DNA of 64,000 nucleotides from Sphingomonas sp. Root710 (lineage in GTDB: Bacteria > Pseudomonadota > Alphaproteobacteria > Sphingomonadales > Sphingomonadaceae), in assembly GCF_001429065.1 (NCBI RefSeq), contig NZ_LMIB01000015.1, forward strand, positions 24,905 through 88,904. The letters run 5' to 3'. This document shows positions 1 through 23,398 of this stretch, one piece after another. Position 1 is the first letter of the stretch. Every line of letters begins with the position of its first letter. The position numbers and the translations under genes were made by a program. Under the pieces are notes generated by a model. The model was not told where the DNA came from and did no database searches. It saw nothing but the letters and a program-made list of their open reading frames with translations.

Positions 1-474
1 CAGCCGCTGCTTCACGACGGCCGCGGTCGTCATGAAGGTGGCGGCGACGGTCTCGATGTCGGTACCCTGGGTCACCAGTTGCTGCATCGCGCGGAATTGG
101 TCGAGCGGATGCAGGGTTTCGCGGTGGACGTTCTCGGCGAGCGAGTCCTCCTCGGCCGAGATCTGGTCATCGTCGCGCACGATGCACGGCACGGGCTCAG
201 TCTTCGCCATGCGGCGCTGCTTCACCAGCTTTTCGAGCGCGCGGAAGCGACGGCCGCCGGCGGGCACCTCGAACAGGCCGGTCTCCTGGCCTTCGGCATC
301 GTGCTGGGCGCGGACGGTCAGGCTCTGTAGGAGGCCGCGGCGGGCGATGTCGGCGGCGAGCGCATCGATCGAGACGCCGGCCTTCACGCGCCGGACATTG
401 GCCTGGCTCAGCACCAGTTGATTGAACGGGATGTCCCGCGAACCGCTGAGGACGATCTTCATATGCTTGGTCAT
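1..474 (-). CDS. ParB/RepB/Spo0J-like nuclease-domain protein (partial, N-terminal 158 residues)
   Basis: The reading frame starts at ATG 474 and runs open off the left edge, so the C-terminus is missing. The visible part is a ParB N-terminal domain: the box VPAGGRRFRALEKL (about residues 67-80) and the motif DSLAENVHRETLHPLDQFRAM (about 112-132) are the classical ParB box I and box II regions, followed by the start of a helix-turn-helix. Proteins of this type on plasmids and integrative elements bind DNA and may act in partition or as regulators. It follows DUF932 and DUF2958 genes on the same strand, so it probably belongs to the mobile element and not to the chromosomal parAB pair. GGAG lies 7 nt before the ATG and sits inside a leader hairpin. 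Family call is firm; role is inferred. Confidence 0.85.
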   Translation of the reverse strand, partial: MTKHMKIVLSGSRDIPFNQLVLSQANVRRVKAGVSIDALAADIARRGLLQSLTVRAQHDAEGQETGLFEVPAGGRRFRALEKLVKQRRMAKTEPVPCIVRDDDQISAEEDSLAENVHRETLHPLDQFRAMQQLVTQGTDIETVAATFMTTAAVVKQRL

Positions 475-580
475 GGGTCTTCTCCATGACGGGCGGCCGG
501 GAGACTCTCTCTCGACCCTCAACCCGTCATGGAGCCGGCGCAGCCCTCTCCCTCTAGGAGGGTGAGAGCCGCGCCGACGT
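475..580 (-). promoter_or_regulatory. Structured 5' leader of the ParB-like gene (Shine-Dalgarno-sequestering hairpin)
   Basis: Seen directly: a perfect 12-bp inverted repeat, 482-493 with 523-534. Read on the minus strand, its 3' arm ends in GGAG, 7 nt before the ATG, and its 5' arm starts with CTCC, so the hairpin hides the ribosome binding site. The 29-nt apical part contains GAGAGAGAG followed by a CTC-rich stretch that can form a small inner stem. Two nt upstream is a second long imperfect hairpin (537-575). The same two-stem layout and much of the same sequence recurs before the DUF932 gene. Interpreted as a cis-acting RNA controlling translation; the ligand or trigger is unknown. Confidence 0.65.
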
Positions 581-596
581 CCCGGGATTTGCGCGC

Positions 597-1001
597 CTAA
601 TCCGGAGGTAGATCACCAGGCGGTGACCGCCGGAACAGGGTTTCGGTCCAGAGGATCGAACCTGTTCGGCGGGACAATGTAGCCCAGACCGAGAGCGGCA
701 CGTTCGACGTGAACGCGGTGTCGATCTCGATGCTCATGCCAAACGGTAGCCGGATCGCGGAGAGTTCGCCGAGCGACCATGGACCGATCTCCGGGCAGCC
801 AAAGCCCAGATCCGCAAGTCCCCAGAGCACATCGCCGTCAGCGGCGAGTTCAGTGGCAAGCCAGGTCTGGCCCCCAAGCGGATTGAAGAACTTGACCACG
901 GGCGGCGGGTCCGGCTCGGACCTGTCGGCTTGCGCGGCTGCGCGCCGATTGATGTCGTTCGCCCGCAGCGCGTAGCGAATGGTTTGAGGGAGCTCGATCA
1001 T
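597..1001 (-). CDS. DUF2958 domain-containing protein
   Basis: A 134-residue protein of unknown function. The central part (PPPVVKFFNPLGGQTWLATEL, then LWGLADLGFGCPEIGPWSLGEL and LPFGMSIEIDTAF) matches the recurring pattern of DUF2958, a small domain found almost only on plasmids, integrative elements and prophages, often beside DUF932, ParB-like and antirestriction genes. AAAGGAG stands 7 nt before ATG 1001, and the gene lies 36 nt downstream of the DUF932 stop, so the two are probably cotranscribed. Unlike its two neighbours it has no leader hairpin. No catalytic residues can be assigned. Confidence 0.75.
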   Translation of the reverse strand: MIELPQTIRYALRANDINRRAAAQADRSEPDPPPVVKFFNPLGGQTWLATELAADGDVLWGLADLGFGCPEIGPWSLGELSAIRLPFGMSIEIDTAFTSNVPLSVWATLSRRTGSILWTETLFRRSPPGDLPPD

Positions 1002-1037
1002 GGATCGCTCCTTTCGGTAGAGGTGGTGCGGGTGCCG

Positions 1038-2234
1038 TCAGACAGCGGCGAGCAGCTTGGCGGCTTTGCCCTCAAGCTCGAGGCGGGTGTCCTGATGGGG
1101 CTTGTCGCGTGCGACCGCGGTGATGCCCTGGACGAAATCGAAGATCGACGCAGGGGGATGGCCTTCCTCGTCGAGCACGGTGGCGATGATCCGGTCGGTG
1201 TCGCCCTTGGAGAAGCCGCGTTTGCGCAGGAAGGACTGACGGTCCTCGTCGGTGCGAGCGACCAAGCGTTCGCGCGCGGCCTTGATGCCCGCCATGAACG
1301 GCACCGGCGAAGAGGTCGCGAAGTTCTCCAGCGCGGGCGCCGCTTCATGAGCGAAACGGTTAGCGGCGAACTTGCTGTGCCGGATGCTGATCTCCTCGAA
1401 GCCTTCAGCGCCCCAGATGTTGCGGTTCATGCAGACCGCGCGCAGGTAGAAGGACGCGATGCCGAGCGTCTTGGAGCCCACCTCGCTGTTCCACGCGTAG
1501 AAGCCGCGAAAGAAGAGGTCTGGATCGCCGTTCGGCAGGCGGCCGGCCTCGATCGGATGAGCATCGTCGACCAAGAACAGGAAGACGTCCCGGTCGCTCG
1601 CATAGAGCGTGGTCGTATCCTCGGTCACCTCGACAAACGGGTTGTGGGTCATGGTCGACCAGTCGAGCAGGCCGGGGACTTTCCAGCGCGTGTCGCCGGT
1701 GCCGTCGCCCGCGATCTTCATGACCGCCGCGACCAGTTCATGGTCCCAGATGCGGCCATAGTCGGGGCCGGTCACGGCACGCAGCTCGACCCGCCCATCG
1801 TCGGTCTCAAGGGTTTTCATCAACTCGGCACGGTGCGACAGCAAACCGTGCTGCATGTTGATCGCGGCGAGCGGCGCGGGCAGCTGCCGGAGGTAGCTCG
1901 CTGGTGCACCGACCAGGCTGGAAAGCTGGCCGAACGACCAATGGGTCGGCATGACCGGCTCATCGCGTCCGGGCACGAGGAGTGCCAGGCGCTCGGCGTC
2001 GTCGCGACTCGCCTCGACCCGGACATCGCGGGTCTCAATAGTGCGGGCGGTAGCGCGCTCGGCGCGGGATTTCACCGCGGCGTGAAGCGAGGATAGGGAC
2101 AGGAAGCGCTCATCGTCTGGGCGCGAGAACCATTCGGATGAGACGCGGCCGATGCGTTGACCGCGTGCGATGTCAACCTTGTAGCCAGCCGAGACCGGCC
2201 GGGACGTATCGGATTGCGTGAGGATCGTCGCCAT
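1038..2234 (-). CDS. DUF932 domain-containing protein (phage/plasmid-like)
   Basis: A 398-residue cytoplasmic protein with no signal peptide or membrane segment. The order of conserved stretches (WSFGQLSSLVGAPASYLRQLP near 115, then YGRIWDHELVAAV, a DRDVFLFLVD segment, the FYAWNSEVGSKTLGIASFYLRAVCMNRNIWG region and a charged helical C-terminus) is that of DUF932, a family carried by conjugative elements, plasmids and phages. Its biochemical role is not established. ATG 2234 is chosen because GGAG lies 7 nt upstream, within the leader hairpin. It heads a minus-strand group with DUF2958 and the ParB-like gene and diverges from the AlpA gene. Confidence 0.8.
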   Translation of the reverse strand: MATILTQSDTSRPVSAGYKVDIARGQRIGRVSSEWFSRPDDERFLSLSSLHAAVKSRAERATARTIETRDVRVEASRDDAERLALLVPGRDEPVMPTHWSFGQLSSLVGAPASYLRQLPAPLAAINMQHGLLSHRAELMKTLETDDGRVELRAVTGPDYGRIWDHELVAAVMKIAGDGTGDTRWKVPGLLDWSTMTHNPFVEVTEDTTTLYASDRDVFLFLVDDAHPIEAGRLPNGDPDLFFRGFYAWNSEVGSKTLGIASFYLRAVCMNRNIWGAEGFEEISIRHSKFAANRFAHEAAPALENFATSSPVPFMAGIKAARERLVARTDEDRQSFLRKRGFSKGDTDRIIATVLDEEGHPPASIFDFVQGITAVARDKPHQDTRLELEGKAAKLLAAV

Positions 2235-2320
2235 GGGATTTCTCCGCGACGGGCGCCGAGAGCCTCTCTCTCAGCCCTTACCCGTCACGGAATTCCGGCT
2301 TTTCTCTTACTCTCAGCCGG
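2235..2320 (-). promoter_or_regulatory. Structured 5' leader of the DUF932 gene, twin of the ParB-like leader
   Basis: Inverted repeat 2243-2253 with 2281-2291 forms an 11-bp stem with one G-U pair. Its 3' arm (minus strand) ends in GCGGA and continues into the GGAG that lies 7 nt before ATG 2234. The apical segment again holds GAGAGAGAG followed by a pyrimidine arm (CTCTC) that can close an inner stem. A second hairpin (arms 2295-2300 and 2315-2320) sits 3 nt upstream. Compared with the ParB-like leader, the fourth base pair of the main stem is G-C here and A-U there, a compensatory change that supports a conserved RNA fold. Function is inferred as translational control. Confidence 0.65.
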
Positions 2321-2543
2321 GGCGTTGCGGGGGCGGAGCCTCCCGTAGAAGGGGTTCGGCGCGACCTCGGGCGCGACGATAGGGGAAGGCTTTCCCCATC
2401 TGGCATCCTTATCCTGCCAATTCGCGTGGATGGAAATTGACCCGTTCGACGTCGATTGTCGCCGTTCGTTGGCGATTGAGGGCAGCAGTCTTTTCCATCC
2501 GCAGATTCAGTACCAAGAAGCGGGTCGTAAGGAGGCACTGTTC
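2321..2543. promoter_or_regulatory. Divergent control region between the DUF932 and AlpA genes
   Basis: This is the rest of a 309-nt gap between two divergent genes. It contains an imperfect dyad at 2378-2400 (GGGGAA facing TTCCCC, flanked by GAT and ATC) and TGGCA/TGCCA arms at about 2401-2419, either of which could be an operator for the AlpA-like protein. A TTGACC hexamer at 2437-2442 points toward AlpA but has no convincing -10 partner. No protein-coding frame in it looks real. Confidence 0.35.
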
Positions 2544-2816
2544 ATGACAGCGAACCCAATCGATCTTCCGAGAACTATTCGACGGCATGAACTGCGACAG
2601 ATTGTGCCTCTCGCCGACAGCACGATCTACGAGATGGAACAGAGGGGAGAATTTCCACGGCGCTATGCGCTTTCATCGCGCTGCGTGGTCTGGGATCTCG
2701 CGGAGGTTGAAGCTTGGCTCGCCGAGCGGCGAGCCAAGCCAGTTCAACGAGCTCCCTTTCCCGATGTCGCTCTCCGGAAAGCGAGGCCCGTCAAAGCGAA
2801 GGATCGAGGACGTTGA
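2544..2816 (+). CDS. AlpA-family phage/element regulator (MerR-like winged HTH)
   Basis: A 90-residue protein. Residues 8-70 fit the AlpA pattern: a HELRQIVPLADSTIYEMEQRGEFPRRY helix-turn-helix and wing, then the VVWDLAEVEAWLAER segment; the tail is basic. AlpA proteins are excisionases or activators of integrase genes in P4-like elements. The ATG at 2544 is preferred over upstream starts because TAAGGAGG precedes it by 8 nt. It is convergent with the integrase, and the 3' ends overlap by 26 bp, so each gene lies partly within the antisense of the other. Likely partner of the recombinase in excision (inference). Confidence 0.85.
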   Translation: MTANPIDLPRTIRRHELRQIVPLADSTIYEMEQRGEFPRRYALSSRCVVWDLAEVEAWLAERRAKPVQRAPFPDVALRKARPVKAKDRGR

Positions 2817-4047
2817 AGGCGGAGTTCGGAGGCATAATCGTCGGTATGCGCTTTTGACCTTCTACCCAAGCGTCGATCATATCGGCCCACTCCTGCAACA
2901 TGTGACGGCGCTGCGGCTCATATTCTGCTTTGTTGTAGACGCCCCGTGACGACTTACCGTCTTCATGGGCGAGGCACTTTTCGATCCAGTCCCGGTTGAA
3001 TCCTGATTCGTTGAGCAATGTGGACCCCGTTCGACGAAGGTCGTGCACGGTGAACGGGTCGAGCGGCAATCGGTCAAGCCTGGCCTGCTCGACCACGGCA
3101 TAGGTCACACGGTTGAAGGTCGCTCGCGACATCGGCGCATCTGCATCATAGCGGGAGGGCAGCAGATAACGGGAGTTGCCGGCACAGGTCTTCAGTGCGA
3201 CCATGATGTCGAGTGCCTGCCGCGAGAGGTAGACGTTGTGCGCCTTAGATCGCTTCATGCGCTCCTTCGGTATGCTCCAGACCGCATTCTCGAAGTCAAT
3301 CTCGTCCCAAGTCGCGTCCTGTAGCTCGCTCTTTCGTACCAGAGTCAGAAGGAACAACCGCATCCCGAGGCGGATTGTTGGAAGCGTAGCGACCTTCTCC
3401 AAACTTCTCAGCATCACGCGAATTTCAGACGGCGTTAGCGACCGATCGCGAGCGACGAATGTCGCGATAGAGGCAGGTCCCACCTCTTCAGCGGGGTTGG
3501 CAACCTTTTCGCCGTGAAGGATCGCAAAGCCGTAGATTTGCTTGACGATGTCGCGGACGTGAATCGCCGTAGCCGGTGCACCCCGATCGACAATTTTGCC
3601 GCATAGGGCGCGAAGGTCGTTAGGCTGCACCTCTCTGAGCAGCCGCTTGTTCCAGTGCGGCAGGAGGTCCCGCTCAAAGATCGCGCGACGCATCGACCGG
3701 GTGCTGTCGGCCATTGGCGCCTTGGCAAGCCAGCTCTCGCCGAATTCGCCGAAGCTTCTGGCCTCTCGAAGCCGCCGCTTCTCGCGCTGCTTTTCCTGGG
3801 CGGGAGAACGTCCCTCGTTCAGAACCCGGCGTGCATCAATGCACTTCTCTCGGGCAAGGGCCAGCGACAGCGCTGCCGGCCCATAGCGACCGAGGTGTAA
3901 GGTCTCCCGCCGGCCGTGGAGGCGATAGTCGAGCCTAAACGTGATCGTGCCGGAGGGCGCGACGTGGGCATACATCCCGTCGCGATCAGTCACTTTGTAA
4001 GGCTTTGCACGTGGCTTACAGGCGCGCAGCGCCGCATCCGTCAGCAT
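2791..4047 (-). CDS. Tyrosine-type site-specific recombinase (P4-family integrase with DUF4102 arm-binding domain)
   Basis: 418 residues. The N-terminus (LTDAALRACKPRAKPYKVTDRDGMY and the LDYRLHGRRETLHLGRYG strand) is the DUF4102 arm-type DNA-binding domain. A core-binding domain follows at about 90-190, and then the catalytic domain. Expected catalytic residues are present: Arg in LVRKSEL, Lys in the beta-hairpin MKRSKAHNVYLS, His-x-x-Arg in HDLRRTGS, His in CLAHEDG, and the nucleophile Tyr371 in VYNKAEY. Length is usual for this family, so it appears intact. AAAGGAG is 5-8 nt before ATG 4047. The gene starts 286 nt from the 3' end of guaA, the classical position of an integrase next to its attachment site. 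Confidence 0.93.
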   Translation of the reverse strand: MLTDAALRACKPRAKPYKVTDRDGMYAHVAPSGTITFRLDYRLHGRRETLHLGRYGPAALSLALAREKCIDARRVLNEGRSPAQEKQREKRRLREARSFGEFGESWLAKAPMADSTRSMRRAIFERDLLPHWNKRLLREVQPNDLRALCGKIVDRGAPATAIHVRDIVKQIYGFAILHGEKVANPAEEVGPASIATFVARDRSLTPSEIRVMLRSLEKVATLPTIRLGMRLFLLTLVRKSELQDATWDEIDFENAVWSIPKERMKRSKAHNVYLSRQALDIMVALKTCAGNSRYLLPSRYDADAPMSRATFNRVTYAVVEQARLDRLPLDPFTVHDLRRTGSTLLNESGFNRDWIEKCLAHEDGKSSRGVYNKAEYEPQRRHMLQEWADMIDAWVEGQKRIPTIMPPNSAFNVLDPSL

Positions 4048-4333: not shown

Positions 4334-4360
4334 TCATTCCCACTCGATCGTCCCGGGCGG
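4330..4360. other. Putative attachment-site half at the guaA 3' end
   Basis: The guaA 3' end is a documented insertion site for integrases of several genomic islands. Here a P4-type integrase starts 286 nt away and mobile-element genes follow it, so the crossover would lie in the last codons of guaA (the IEWE-stop end). The sequence is not repeated elsewhere in the window, as expected if the other attachment half lies beyond position 1. Exact core borders cannot be defined here. Confidence 0.4.
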
Positions 4361-5932
4361 CTTCGACGTGAAGTCGTAGGTGACCCGGTTGATGCCCTGC
4401 ACCTCGTTGACGATCCGGGTGGCGACGCGGCTCAGGAAGGCGGGGTCGAAGGGGTAGACGTCGGCGGTCATGCCGTCGGTCGAGGTAACGGCGCGCAGCG
4501 CACAAACGCTGTCATAGGTGCGGCCGTCGCCCATCACGCCGACGGTACGCACCGGCAACAGCACGGCGAAGGCCTGCCAGATCGCATCGTAAAGTCCCGC
4601 GCGACGGATCTCATCGAGATAGACGGCATCGGCCTTGCGCAGGATATCGCAGCGCTCCTTGGTGACCTCGCCCGGGATCCGGATCGCGAGGCCCGGCCCC
4701 GGGAAGGGGTGGCGGCCGACGAAGATATCAGGCAGGCCGAGTTCACGGCCGAGCGCACGGACCTCGTCCTTGAACAGTTCGCGCAGCGGCTCGACCAGCT
4801 TCATGTTCATCCGCTCGGGCAGGCCACCGACATTGTGGTGGCTCTTGATCGTGACCGAAGGGCCGCCGGTGAAGCTGACGCTCTCGATCACGTCGGGATA
4901 GAGCGTGCCCTGTGCCAGGAAGTCGGCGCCGCCGATCTTCTTCGCCTCGGCCTCGAACACCTCGATGAAGGTCTTGCCGATGAACTTGCGCTTGGCCTCG
5001 GGATCGGTGAGGCCCTTCAGGCCGCTGAGGAACAGCGTCTCGGCGTTCACATGGACCAGCGGGATGCCGTAATGTTCGCGGAACAGGCTGACCACCTGAT
5101 CGGCCTCGCCCATCCGCATCAGGCCATGATCGACGAACACGCAGGTCAGCTGGTCGCCGATTGCTTCGTGGATCAGCACCGCCGCGACCGCGCTGTCGAC
5201 GCCGCCGGACAGGCCGCAGATCACCCGGCCATCGCCGACCTGCTTGCGGATTTCAGCGATCTTGGTCGCGCGGAATTCGGCCATCGTCCAGTCGCCGGCC
5301 AGCCCGCAGACATGGCGGACGAAGTTGGCGATCAGCTTGCCGCCATCGGGGGTGTGGACCACCTCGGGATGGAACTGAACGCCATAGAAGCGACGCTTCT
5401 CGTCCGAGGTCACCGCAAAGGGCGCGCCTTCCGACACCGCGATCGGCGAAAAGCCTTCGGGCAGGGCATCGACTTTGTCGCCATGGCTCATCCAGACCTG
5501 GTGGCTCTCGCCTTCCTTCCATAAGCCGTCGAACAGCGCCGAACGATCCTTGATCTCGATGAAGGCGCGGCCGAACTCGCGGCTGTCATGGCCCGGCGTG
5601 ACCGAACCGCCGAGCTGCTGGCACATCGTCTGCTGGCCATAGCAGATGCCCAGGATCGGCACGCCCGCCTCGAAGAAGCGCTGCGGCGCCCGCGGACTGC
5701 CGATATCGGTGACCGAGGCGGGGCCACCGCCGAGGATGATGCCCTTGGGCTGCAGCCTGTCGAAGGCCGCGTCGGCCGCGTTGAAGGGCGCGATTTCGCT
5801 GTAGACGCCCGCCTCGCGAACCCGTCTCGCGATGAGCTGGGTCACCTGACTGCCGAAATCGACGATCAGGATCGTTTCCTGCGGCTGGCTGCTGGGCTTC
5901 GGGGCGGCGGTGGCGGGAAGCTGGGCTGTCAT
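4334..5932 (-). CDS. guaA: GMP synthase (glutamine-hydrolysing)
   Basis: 532 residues. It converts XMP to GMP with glutamine and ATP, the last step of guanine nucleotide synthesis. The N-terminal class-I amidotransferase domain has the nucleophile Cys97 in GICYGQQT and the His-Glu pair in [11 protein letters not shown]. The ATP pyrophosphatase domain carries the P-loop [10 protein letters not shown], and the C-terminal dimerisation domain has [12 protein letters not shown] and ends in IEWE. About 18 extra residues precede the usual start. The frame is intact up to its stop, so insertion of the neighbouring element did not damage the enzyme. Confidence 0.97.
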
Positions 5933-19532: not shown

Positions 19533-19842
19533 TGATCGTCTCCCCGGTCTTGACCGCGACGCGGACCTTCTTGCCGTCCTTGACGTCGAAGCGGACGCGC
19601 GAGGCCTTGCCGTCGGCAGTCGCGATCGCGACCTTCGAGACATGCAGCGGTGCTTCGACGCGCTCGAGGCCACCCTGGGGGTTGGCCTGGCTCGGCTTGC
19701 GATGGCGGGTCGAGACGTTGACGCCCGACACGATCACCTTGGCGTCCTTCGGAAAGGACTTGGTGACTTCGCCGGTCTTGCCCTTGTCCTTGCCGGACAG
19801 GACGACGACGCGGTCACCCTTCTTGATCTTCAGCGCGGACAT
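19525..19842 (-). CDS. rplX: 50S ribosomal protein L24
   Basis: 105 residues. KOW motif at the start ([25 protein letters not shown]), then [20 protein letters not shown]. An assembly initiator of the large subunit. Shares one base with rplN and 8 nt with rplE. Confidence 0.97.
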
Positions 19843-20213
19843 TACAGCACCTCAGGCGCGAGCGAGATGATCTTCATGTGGTTCTTGGCGCGGAGCTCGC
19901 GGACGACCGGGCCGAAGATGCGGGTGCCGATCGGCTCGCCGCTGTTCTTGTTGATCAGGACGGCGGCGTTGCCATCGAACCGGATCGTCGAACCGTCGGG
20001 ACGATGGATGTCCTTGGCGGTGCGGACGATGACCGCGCGATGCACGTCACCCTTCTTGACCTTGCCGCGCGGAGCCGCTTCCTTGATCGAGACGACGATG
20101 ACGTCGCCCACGGTCGCGAAACGGCGCTTGGAACCGCCCAGCACCTTGATGCACTGCACCCTCTTCGCGCCGCTGTTGTCAGCGACATCGAGGTTCGTCT
20201 GCATCTGGATCAT
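19842..20213 (-). CDS. rplN: 50S ribosomal protein L14
   Basis: 123 residues. Start [31 protein letters not shown] and end [19 protein letters not shown] are typical. At the subunit interface, where RsfS binds. Nineteen nt downstream of rpsQ. Confidence 0.97.
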
Positions 20214-22561: not shown

Positions 22562-23398
22562 TTACCTCTTCTTCTTCGCGTGGCGCGAACGGATGATGAA
22601 CTTGTCGGTCGACTTGTTGTGACGCGTGCGCGCACCCTTCGTCGGCTTGCCCCACGGCGTGACCGGATGACGGCCGCCCGAGGTCCGGCCTTCACCACCG
22701 CCATGGGGGTGGTCGACCGGGTTCTTGGCGACGCCGCGGGTCAGCGGACGCTTGCCCAGCCAGCGATTCCGGCCGGCCTTGGCAAGGTTCTGGTTGGCGT
22801 TGTCTGGGTTCGACACCGCACCGACCGTGCACATGCAATCCGAGCGGATGTAGCGCTGCTCGCCCGAGTTCAGGCGAACCATCACCATGCCCTTGTCGCG
22901 GCCGACGATCTGCACATAGGTGCCCGCCGCACGTGCGATCTGACCGCCCTTGCCGGGCTTCATCTCGACGTTGTGGACGATCGTGCCGACCGGAGCCTGG
23001 CCGATTTCCATCGCGTTGCCCGGCTTGGTGTCGGTCTTCTTGCCCGCGACGATGACGTCGCCGGCGGCCAGACGCTGCGGCGCGATGACATAAGCCAGTT
23101 CGCCGTCCTCATACTTCACCAGCGCGATGAAGGCCGAACGGTTCGGGTCATACTCTAGATGCTCGACGGTCGCGGGCTGATCCCACTTGCGACGCTTGAA
23201 GTCGATGATCCGGTACTTCTGCTTGTGGCCGCCCGCGATGCCACGCGCGGTCGCATGGCCCATATTGTTGCGGCCACCCGACTTGCGCTTGCCTTCGGTC
23301 AGCGCCTTGACAGGCTTGCCCTTGTGCAGTGCGGACTTGTCGACGAGGATCAGGCCGCGGCGGGCCGGGCTCGTCGGGTTATAATGCTTCAGCGCCAT
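22562..23398 (-). CDS. rplB: 50S ribosomal protein L2
   Basis: 278 residues. Near the peptidyl transferase centre. Signature [25 protein letters not shown], with the functionally important His in DHPHGG; N-terminus [16 protein letters not shown]. Four nt after rplW. Confidence 0.98.

Follow-up and report, generated by a model that had tools for sequence, protein, structure and literature searches.

Candidate RNA leaders that occlude the Shine-Dalgarno sequence of genes on alphaproteobacterial mobile elements

The stretch of DNA analysed here, called the window below, comprises 64,000 nucleotides of Sphingomonas sp. Root710 (contig NZ_LMIB01000015.1, positions 24,905 to 88,904), and at its left end three minus-strand genes follow a tyrosine integrase in the order DUF932, DUF2958 and ParB-like. 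The open reading frame (ORF) at 4334-5932 beside the integrase is one we take to be guaA. To the left of the window the same contig encodes a MobA/MobL relaxase with a helicase domain, a TrwB-type coupling protein and an SLT transglycosylase, and because of these three genes the locus looks like part of an integrated mobilizable or conjugative element. A first inspection of the letters (the sequence-only reading) had proposed that the DUF932 and ParB-like genes of this element begin with twin RNA leaders that bury the ribosome binding site (RBS). Our analysis confirms the existence of such leaders and places them in a wider set that appears to be a shared, hitherto undescribed switch for genes aiding the establishment of mobile DNA in a new cell.

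In both leaders the Shine-Dalgarno (SD) sequence GGAG lies in the 3′ arm of a stable stem 7 nt before the ATG, just as had been claimed, with predicted folding energies of −36.8 kcal/mol for the ParB-like leader and −36.0 kcal/mol for the DUF932 leader; for neither was equal stability reached in any of 200 dinucleotide shuffles. The main hairpin of the ParB-like leader consists of a 12-bp outer stem, a 5′ bulge (UUGAG), an apical stem and a purine loop, and its 3′ arm ends in GGAGA. An apical part containing GAGAGAGAG is present in both leaders, as are the A-U to G-C compensatory change and the U-A to U-G change that the sequence-only reading had pointed out between the two main stems, while the leader of the intervening DUF2958 gene shows no such fold (z 0.28), again in agreement with it. 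Overlooked at that time was a AGAGNNAGAG box upstream of each main hairpin. From ten leaders, the two in the window included, we built a covariance model with 54 positions (R1), whose scores are listed with the coordinates of all features in Table 1.

Table 1. Features at the left end of the window (positions are those of the window; R1 is the covariance model of the leader)
Feature	Position	Strand	Remarks
ParB-like gene, 5′ part	1..474	minus	PF02195 above cut-off; 711 aa in the full contig
SD sequence GGAG in 3′ arm, ParB-like leader	482..485	minus	7 nt before ATG (474)
Main hairpin, ParB-like leader	481..534	minus	fold z −5.1; R1 77.1 bits, itself a model seed
Upstream hairpin, ParB-like leader	535..578	minus	strong here, not universal across the family
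AGAG box (AGAGGGAGAG), ParB-like leader	546..555	minus	11 nt before main hairpin
DUF2958 gene	597..1001	minus	PF11171; unstructured leader without the motif
DUF932-type gene	1038..2234	minus	named after records of several homologues; PF06067 17.5 bits, cut-off 23
SD sequence GGAG in 3′ arm, DUF932 leader	2242..2245	minus	7 nt before ATG (2234)
Main hairpin, DUF932 leader	2241..2292	minus	fold z −5.3; R1 72.3 bits, itself a model seed
Upstream hairpin, DUF932 leader	2295..2320	minus	loop carries the AGAG box
AGAG box (AGAGUAAGAG), DUF932 leader	2304..2313	minus	11 nt before main hairpin
AlpA-like ORF	2430-2816	plus	
Tyrosine integrase of the element	2791..4047	minus	PF00589, PF13356, PF22022; adjoins guaA

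The 234 hits collected correspond to 228 distinct leaders, 216 of which have a nearby ATG-initiated ORF of at least 60 aa. Their layout runs from an AGAG box across a gap of mostly 10-14 nt to a hairpin with a 5′ bulge, an AGAG apical loop and the SD sequence in its 3′ arm, mostly 6-8 nt from the ATG, with compensatory change on the RNA strand and establishment-type (leading-region) genes downstream. The ATG follows the model end by 6-8 nt in 194/216 leaders. Within 50 nt upstream of the hairpin the box AG[AG]GNN[AG]GAG is present in 176/228 leaders (3 expected from mononucleotide shuffles), and its end lies 10-14 nt before the hairpin in 174 of these 176, the other two distances being 9 and 1 nt; the bare AGAG occurs within 30 nt upstream in 225/228 (47 expected from shuffles), and many boxes contain GAGG. 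In an alignment of 149 hits (A4; 148 distinct leaders), which was made to the model and is hence biased towards its structure, the loop reads A (99%), G (94%), A (90%), G (98%) and then G or U, and the four SD columns GGAG are conserved at 98, 99, 97 and 94%. No strongly conserved column was seen farther upstream in 113 leaders aligned on the box.

The second hairpin reported for both leaders of the window is indeed there, and across the family it is, on the predictions, a weak feature: among 227 upstream segments, 191 are predicted to form one of at least 8 pairs that ends close to the main stem, and 66 exceed shuffles in stability (z below −2; ParB 45/115, DUF932 7/48, ArdC 2/33). Separately, a GCGGGGARACCCCGC-like hairpin was seen by eye farther upstream of DUF932 and ArdC leaders in several other genomes; the corresponding stretch of the window is 2295-2430. 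A leader peptide starting from RUGACGGG in the 5′ arm was also considered and rejected, the pattern being missing in 78/216 leaders and thus not conserved; the possible short ORF meets an in-frame stop before the gene in 72/142 leaders. A pairing of the box with the apical arm as an alternative fold was likewise set aside after inspection by eye.

Similar leaders are widespread within the window's class. Nine DUF932 and ParB leaders were inspected by eye on five plasmids that carry homologous genes, and eight of them show the fold. R1 (matches counted at an expectation value, E, of ≤0.001, in genome sets that overlap) detected it in 26/385 genomes of the class (7%), 30/246 of the window's order (12%) and 24/76 of the order of genome G066 (32%), a search of the kind that the sequence-only reading had proposed. 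In a sample of the phylum all 25 matching genomes among 299 belong to the class; the share of the 299 that lies outside it is not given, and absence of the family there is not proven. Stretches around distant ParB-like homologues (E. coli, Burkholderia, Shewanella, pAgK84) yielded a single R1 match up to E 10, on the other strand (E 0.18). Motif genomes of the class sample carry 2-4 copies in 18 of 26 cases, and one genome of the window's family (G616) holds twelve copies on five contigs, so several elements may coexist in it. An exact 34-base degenerate pattern matched at least 119 stretches of genome_contigs; among the 80 matches listed, 79 are alphaproteobacterial by title (Caulobacter, Methylobacterium, Mesorhizobium, Paracoccus, Sphingomonas and Roseomonas among them) and one is titled only 'Proteobacteria', while viral_contigs gave no exact match to the pattern. 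A phage protein search with the ParB-like protein returned 20 records, one of which covers at least 80% of the query. With blastn the window's ParB leader found matches in 96 of 72,556 plasmid records; among the best 40 of these 96, 39 have no feature under the match in a gene table that is incomplete, and one record is unannotated.

The 216 downstream ORFs cluster mainly into ParB-like (118), DUF932 (50) and ArdC-like (34) proteins, followed by a family of 172-185 aa (4) and ten singletons, a part of which seem to be truncated or read out of frame. ArdC identity was confirmed with Pfam for one member (ArdcN, MPTase-PolyVal), the DUF932 label comes from record names (its Pfam score is below cut-off), and in the 172-185 aa family one member is annotated as RadC and another has no Pfam match. 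The motif also stands before small unnamed ORFs and before two ORFs named by eye, one AlpA-like and one PAPS-reductase-like (L362, Ketogulonicigenium pYP1, 19835-19889; L055, L156, L183, L065). The ParB-like gene has a homologue, yfhA, on an IncI plasmid of E. coli (33% identity across 38% of the query, E 1e-21), where the genes run ssb, orf, yfhA, psiB, psiA, ygaA and then ardA, a row which we take to be the leading region. On pAt of Agrobacterium SJ002 (L239) the ParB leader with the motif (22948-23002) and the leader of an antirestriction gene (26080), which has an AGAGAG loop and its SD sequence outside the hairpin, belong to genes that both face the traA/traC intergenic region, presumably the oriT of Ti-type systems. 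In published work, R388 needs its ArdC in recipients and not in donors (PMC7213743), and a study of polyvalent proteins counts a ParB-like domain and the ArdC domain among the tools with which elements invade (PMC5512222). The set of downstream genes is in keeping with a role when the element enters a recipient.

The pairing itself has been maintained through change. In A4 93.6% of the cells are paired, compared to 36-55% with the partners slid, and two-sided change affects 17 of the 20 pairs; it is seen in 171 cells, compared to 44 when shuffled. Mapped onto a ParB protein tree, 63 leaders give 34 compensatory events at 14/20 pairs, and 51 DUF932 plus ArdC leaders give 29 events at 12/20 pairs (counted on one mixed tree though these proteins are unrelated); slid pairs give 2-7 in either set. 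This much compensatory change in further leaders bears out the proposal of a conserved cis-acting, SD-occluding RNA fold. On the mRNA strand G-U and U-G occupy 419 cells and A-C and C-A 63, an excess from which the alignment indicates that the structure acts as RNA and that the mRNA is the constrained strand. The idea that the stem opens upon single-stranded entry is weakened by the same bias.

If instead the hairpin formed in the entering DNA strand and recruited RNA polymerase there, in the way of the single-stranded promoters Frpo and ssi, the leading-region type of gene content would be accounted for, as would the co-orientation of the motif genes in all three annotated multi-copy plasmids examined. 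However, the G-U excess means that the template strand, presumably the one that enters, would carry mismatches, and the structure favours the mRNA; GGAG and ATG moreover keep a near-fixed distance from the stem, and a scan of 450-2600, which reads duplex consensus only and not other promoter types, found no sigma-70-like site. We hold such a promoter to be quite improbable. More improbable still is a double-stranded operator or partition-type site, that is, an inverted repeat to which a repressor, for example the ParB-like protein, would bind in the DNA. The inverted repeats do adjoin the ParB-like gene, and a ParB-like match exists in 37/42 motif genomes (some partial or weak), but none was found in the other five, and neither compensatory change nor strand-biased G-U pairs would be expected of a DNA site. 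With those five genomes the ParB-like protein was also rejected as an obligate partner of the leaders, and it is therefore at best one candidate factor.

A further concern is that gene starts could have been copied or converted between neighbouring genes, carrying along a fold that is not under selection. Within one locus, leaders of different genes are on average more alike (0.794 identity, 63 pairs) than DUF932 and ParB leaders across loci (0.748), and both leaders of the window have close cross-kind matches in other genomes: the best match of the ParB leader before another kind of gene has 94% identity, and the DUF932 leader matches at 90% before DUF932 and at 91% before another kind. Given these values the leader kinds are, by sequence identity, not cleanly separate by gene kind. 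Yet the downstream proteins are unrelated, compensatory events exceed those at slid pairs, and the window's ParB leader is far closer to the ParB leader of another genome (0.963) than to the neighbouring DUF932 leader (0.796), so that hitch-hiking is the least probable of the accounts considered here. The same comparison (96% against 80%) does away with the notion of a duplication limited to this locus, and the identities support a dispersed family.

The SD sequence lies in the conserved stem, with exceptions among related leaders discussed below. In A4 the two leading G letters of GGAG are paired in 139/147 and 143/147 leaders, and opening GGAG takes 6.8 kcal/mol (median of 198 leaders) compared to 4.25 kcal/mol at 156 control starts, from which newly fetched loci and segments with GAGAG were excluded. 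Such a stem could in principle do no more than set a constant low level of translation and block read-through, without any trans-acting factor and with AGAG as a structural or ribosome standby site. Its great stability would suit this role, as would the position of the window's ParB leader inside an apparent DUF932-DUF2958-ParB operon on the minus strand, the GAGG of many boxes, which could pair with the anti-SD sequence, and the precedent of EGeRS1-B on pLS20, which prevents expression from an upstream promoter (PMC8708921). On the other hand, a bare stem requires no conserved AGAG loop and no box at fixed spacing, and related leaders retain both without occluding the SD sequence; as loop and box can outlast occlusion in this way, a recognised element is favoured over a bare stem, and we consider the purely passive stem unlikely.

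We therefore regard the leaders as probably an undescribed family of cis-acting translational operators, forming an establishment regulon of mobile elements that would be read by a putative factor via the AGAG motifs. In this model the stem would hold translation down by default, also on read-through transcripts, and the level would be set by a shared factor that acts in trans and recognises the AGAG box and loop; this factor is most likely a protein and possibly the ribosome or a small RNA. Synthesis of the gene products would thus coincide within a brief interval, most plausibly right after the element has entered a recipient or while it is active.

A number of observations weigh against this model. 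The five motif genomes without a ParB-like match offer no candidate factor of that kind. Covariation in a wider set of leaders, which the sequence-only reading had looked to for a decision, came out divided: the compensatory counts exceed those of slid pairs, whereas a null simulated on a tree with random branches left none of 1378 pairs significant, a null keeping the substitutions per branch left one (in the structure), and a third, also weighted by column rate, left none. Seven of the top eight pairs in the covariation ranking do belong to the structure, and all three nulls have low power because they use one tree from the same 53 columns; even so they stand against a strong claim of covariation. 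Occlusion is also incomplete in A4, as the A of GGAG is unpaired in 52/148 leaders (paired in 96/148) and the last G in 29/147 (paired in 118/147), and in a first accessibility run 40/198 motif leaders fell below the median of 421 control starts, which included unlisted motif copies. Individual genes lack the element as well: the DUF932 leader on pAt shows no fold by eye and R1 matches only the ParB copy there, the DUF932 gene of G093 has no R1 match at threshold (best 15.6 bits), and DUF6878 on pMC4 has neither hairpin and loop nor box.

A further objection comes from boxes outside the R1 set. The collected sequence holds 295 distinct boxes; an R1 hit lies no more than 150 nt away from 173 of them, and 25 boxes without one precede an AGAG-loop hairpin and an ORF. 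Judged by eye, one of these (L133) belongs to the first type, and in the other 24 leaders the SD sequence lies downstream of the hairpin. Judged by eye, 20 of the 24 precede ORFs of apparently one family, with an AAA_34 domain in both members tested and a 'strawberry notch' annotation of AAA_34-type genes in plasmid records; the other four precede DUF6878-like genes (one tested). Aligned with each other, 19 of these related leaders show two-sided change at 6/27 pairs. On p1METDI the leaders of the ParB and strawberry-notch genes have the box, and that of ArdC keeps hairpin and loop but has no GGAG in the stem and no box match. With the SD sequence outside the hairpin before strawberry-notch-like and DUF6878 genes and before ArdC of p1METDI, SD occlusion is, on the sequences compared, not an invariant feature.

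The leaders with this second architecture (the same AGAG box, an AGAGAG loop and the SD sequence outside) are L171-L184, L186, L188, L191, L203 and L211, together with L361 at 25690 and L362 at 21721, and in some of them a small GAGG/CCUC hairpin beside the ATG may cover the SD sequence. The Methylorubrum variants on p1METDI (L363, 3450-3499, 8520-8568, 12035-12091 and 11121-11159) keep hairpin and loop, some with the box, and have a changed SD arm; two of them precede unnamed genes and may flag further establishment genes.

A more specific version of the operator model is tentative, and we would expect it to fail more readily than to hold: a single AGAG-recognising factor, common to alphaproteobacterial plasmids and integrative elements, would bind box and loop of many leaders and so determine when anti-restriction, ParB-like, DUF932 and helicase proteins are made upon entry, doing through RNA what single-stranded promoters do in zygotic induction. 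In practical terms, a compact RNA before ArdC, ParB-like and DUF932 genes provides a searchable tag for establishment genes, unnamed ones included, and each leader is a directly testable operator candidate.

The sequence-only reading had recognised no named motif class, and among the 4227 families of Rfam 15 none reached its gathering score in the window. Permissive searches of 400-2500, of 470-590 and of four plasmid loci gave no match that we accept. Those overlapping the ParB leader were all below threshold and are taken as chance: Methylosinus-1 on the opposite strand (21.9 bits, threshold 145.1, E 0.024; search of 400-2500), CC3513 (22.2 bits, threshold 40, E 0.016; search of 470-590) and, in the latter search, a number of animal miRNA families besides a few further ones. 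Alphaproteobacterial RNA thermometers of the ROSE type likewise use an SD-occluding hairpin. Their stems are marginally stable, which those of the window's leaders (energies at 37 °C given above) are not, and their genes differ too, so the leaders were rejected as thermometers.

The radC RNA motif lies before radC, integrase and antirestriction genes. It is likewise a proteobacterial candidate cis-regulatory RNA (Rfam RF01754, PMC2864571), with a model of 149 positions compared to 54 here. RF01754 did not come up in searches of window positions 400-2500 and 470-590 reaching to E 10, nor in searches of L009, L010, L011 and L013 reaching to E 5; a genome search with it gave 0/96 matches and is uninformative, as none of 14 controls was detected either. 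Searches of open-licence literature listed no description of the leader family, which may exist in print elsewhere, and a term search in a paper on new bacterial RNA motifs (PMC8632094) was without a match.

For the genes made on arrival, the control described in the sources at hand consists of single-stranded promoters, repressors and the pLS20 elements. Frpo and ssi of F and ColIb-P9 (PMC11541004, PMC8708921) are also folded elements before leading-region genes, and a homologue of the ParB-like gene is located in such a region; these elements act as a DNA promoter, whereas the leaders described here have a G-U bias that points to RNA and abut the start codon. With EGeRS1 of the Bacillus conjugative plasmid pLS20 the family shares a repeated structured element adjoining the RBS of establishment genes. 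EGeRS1 copies are 420-751 bp long, have 62-95% mutual identity and are Gram-positive, and their action as single-stranded DNA or RNA is open (PMC8708921); the leaders are set apart from this description by a length of ~90 nt, an SD sequence inside the stem, covariation and an alphaproteobacterial distribution. By analogy, and within what these sources describe, EGeRS1 would be the nearest described parallel to the leaders.

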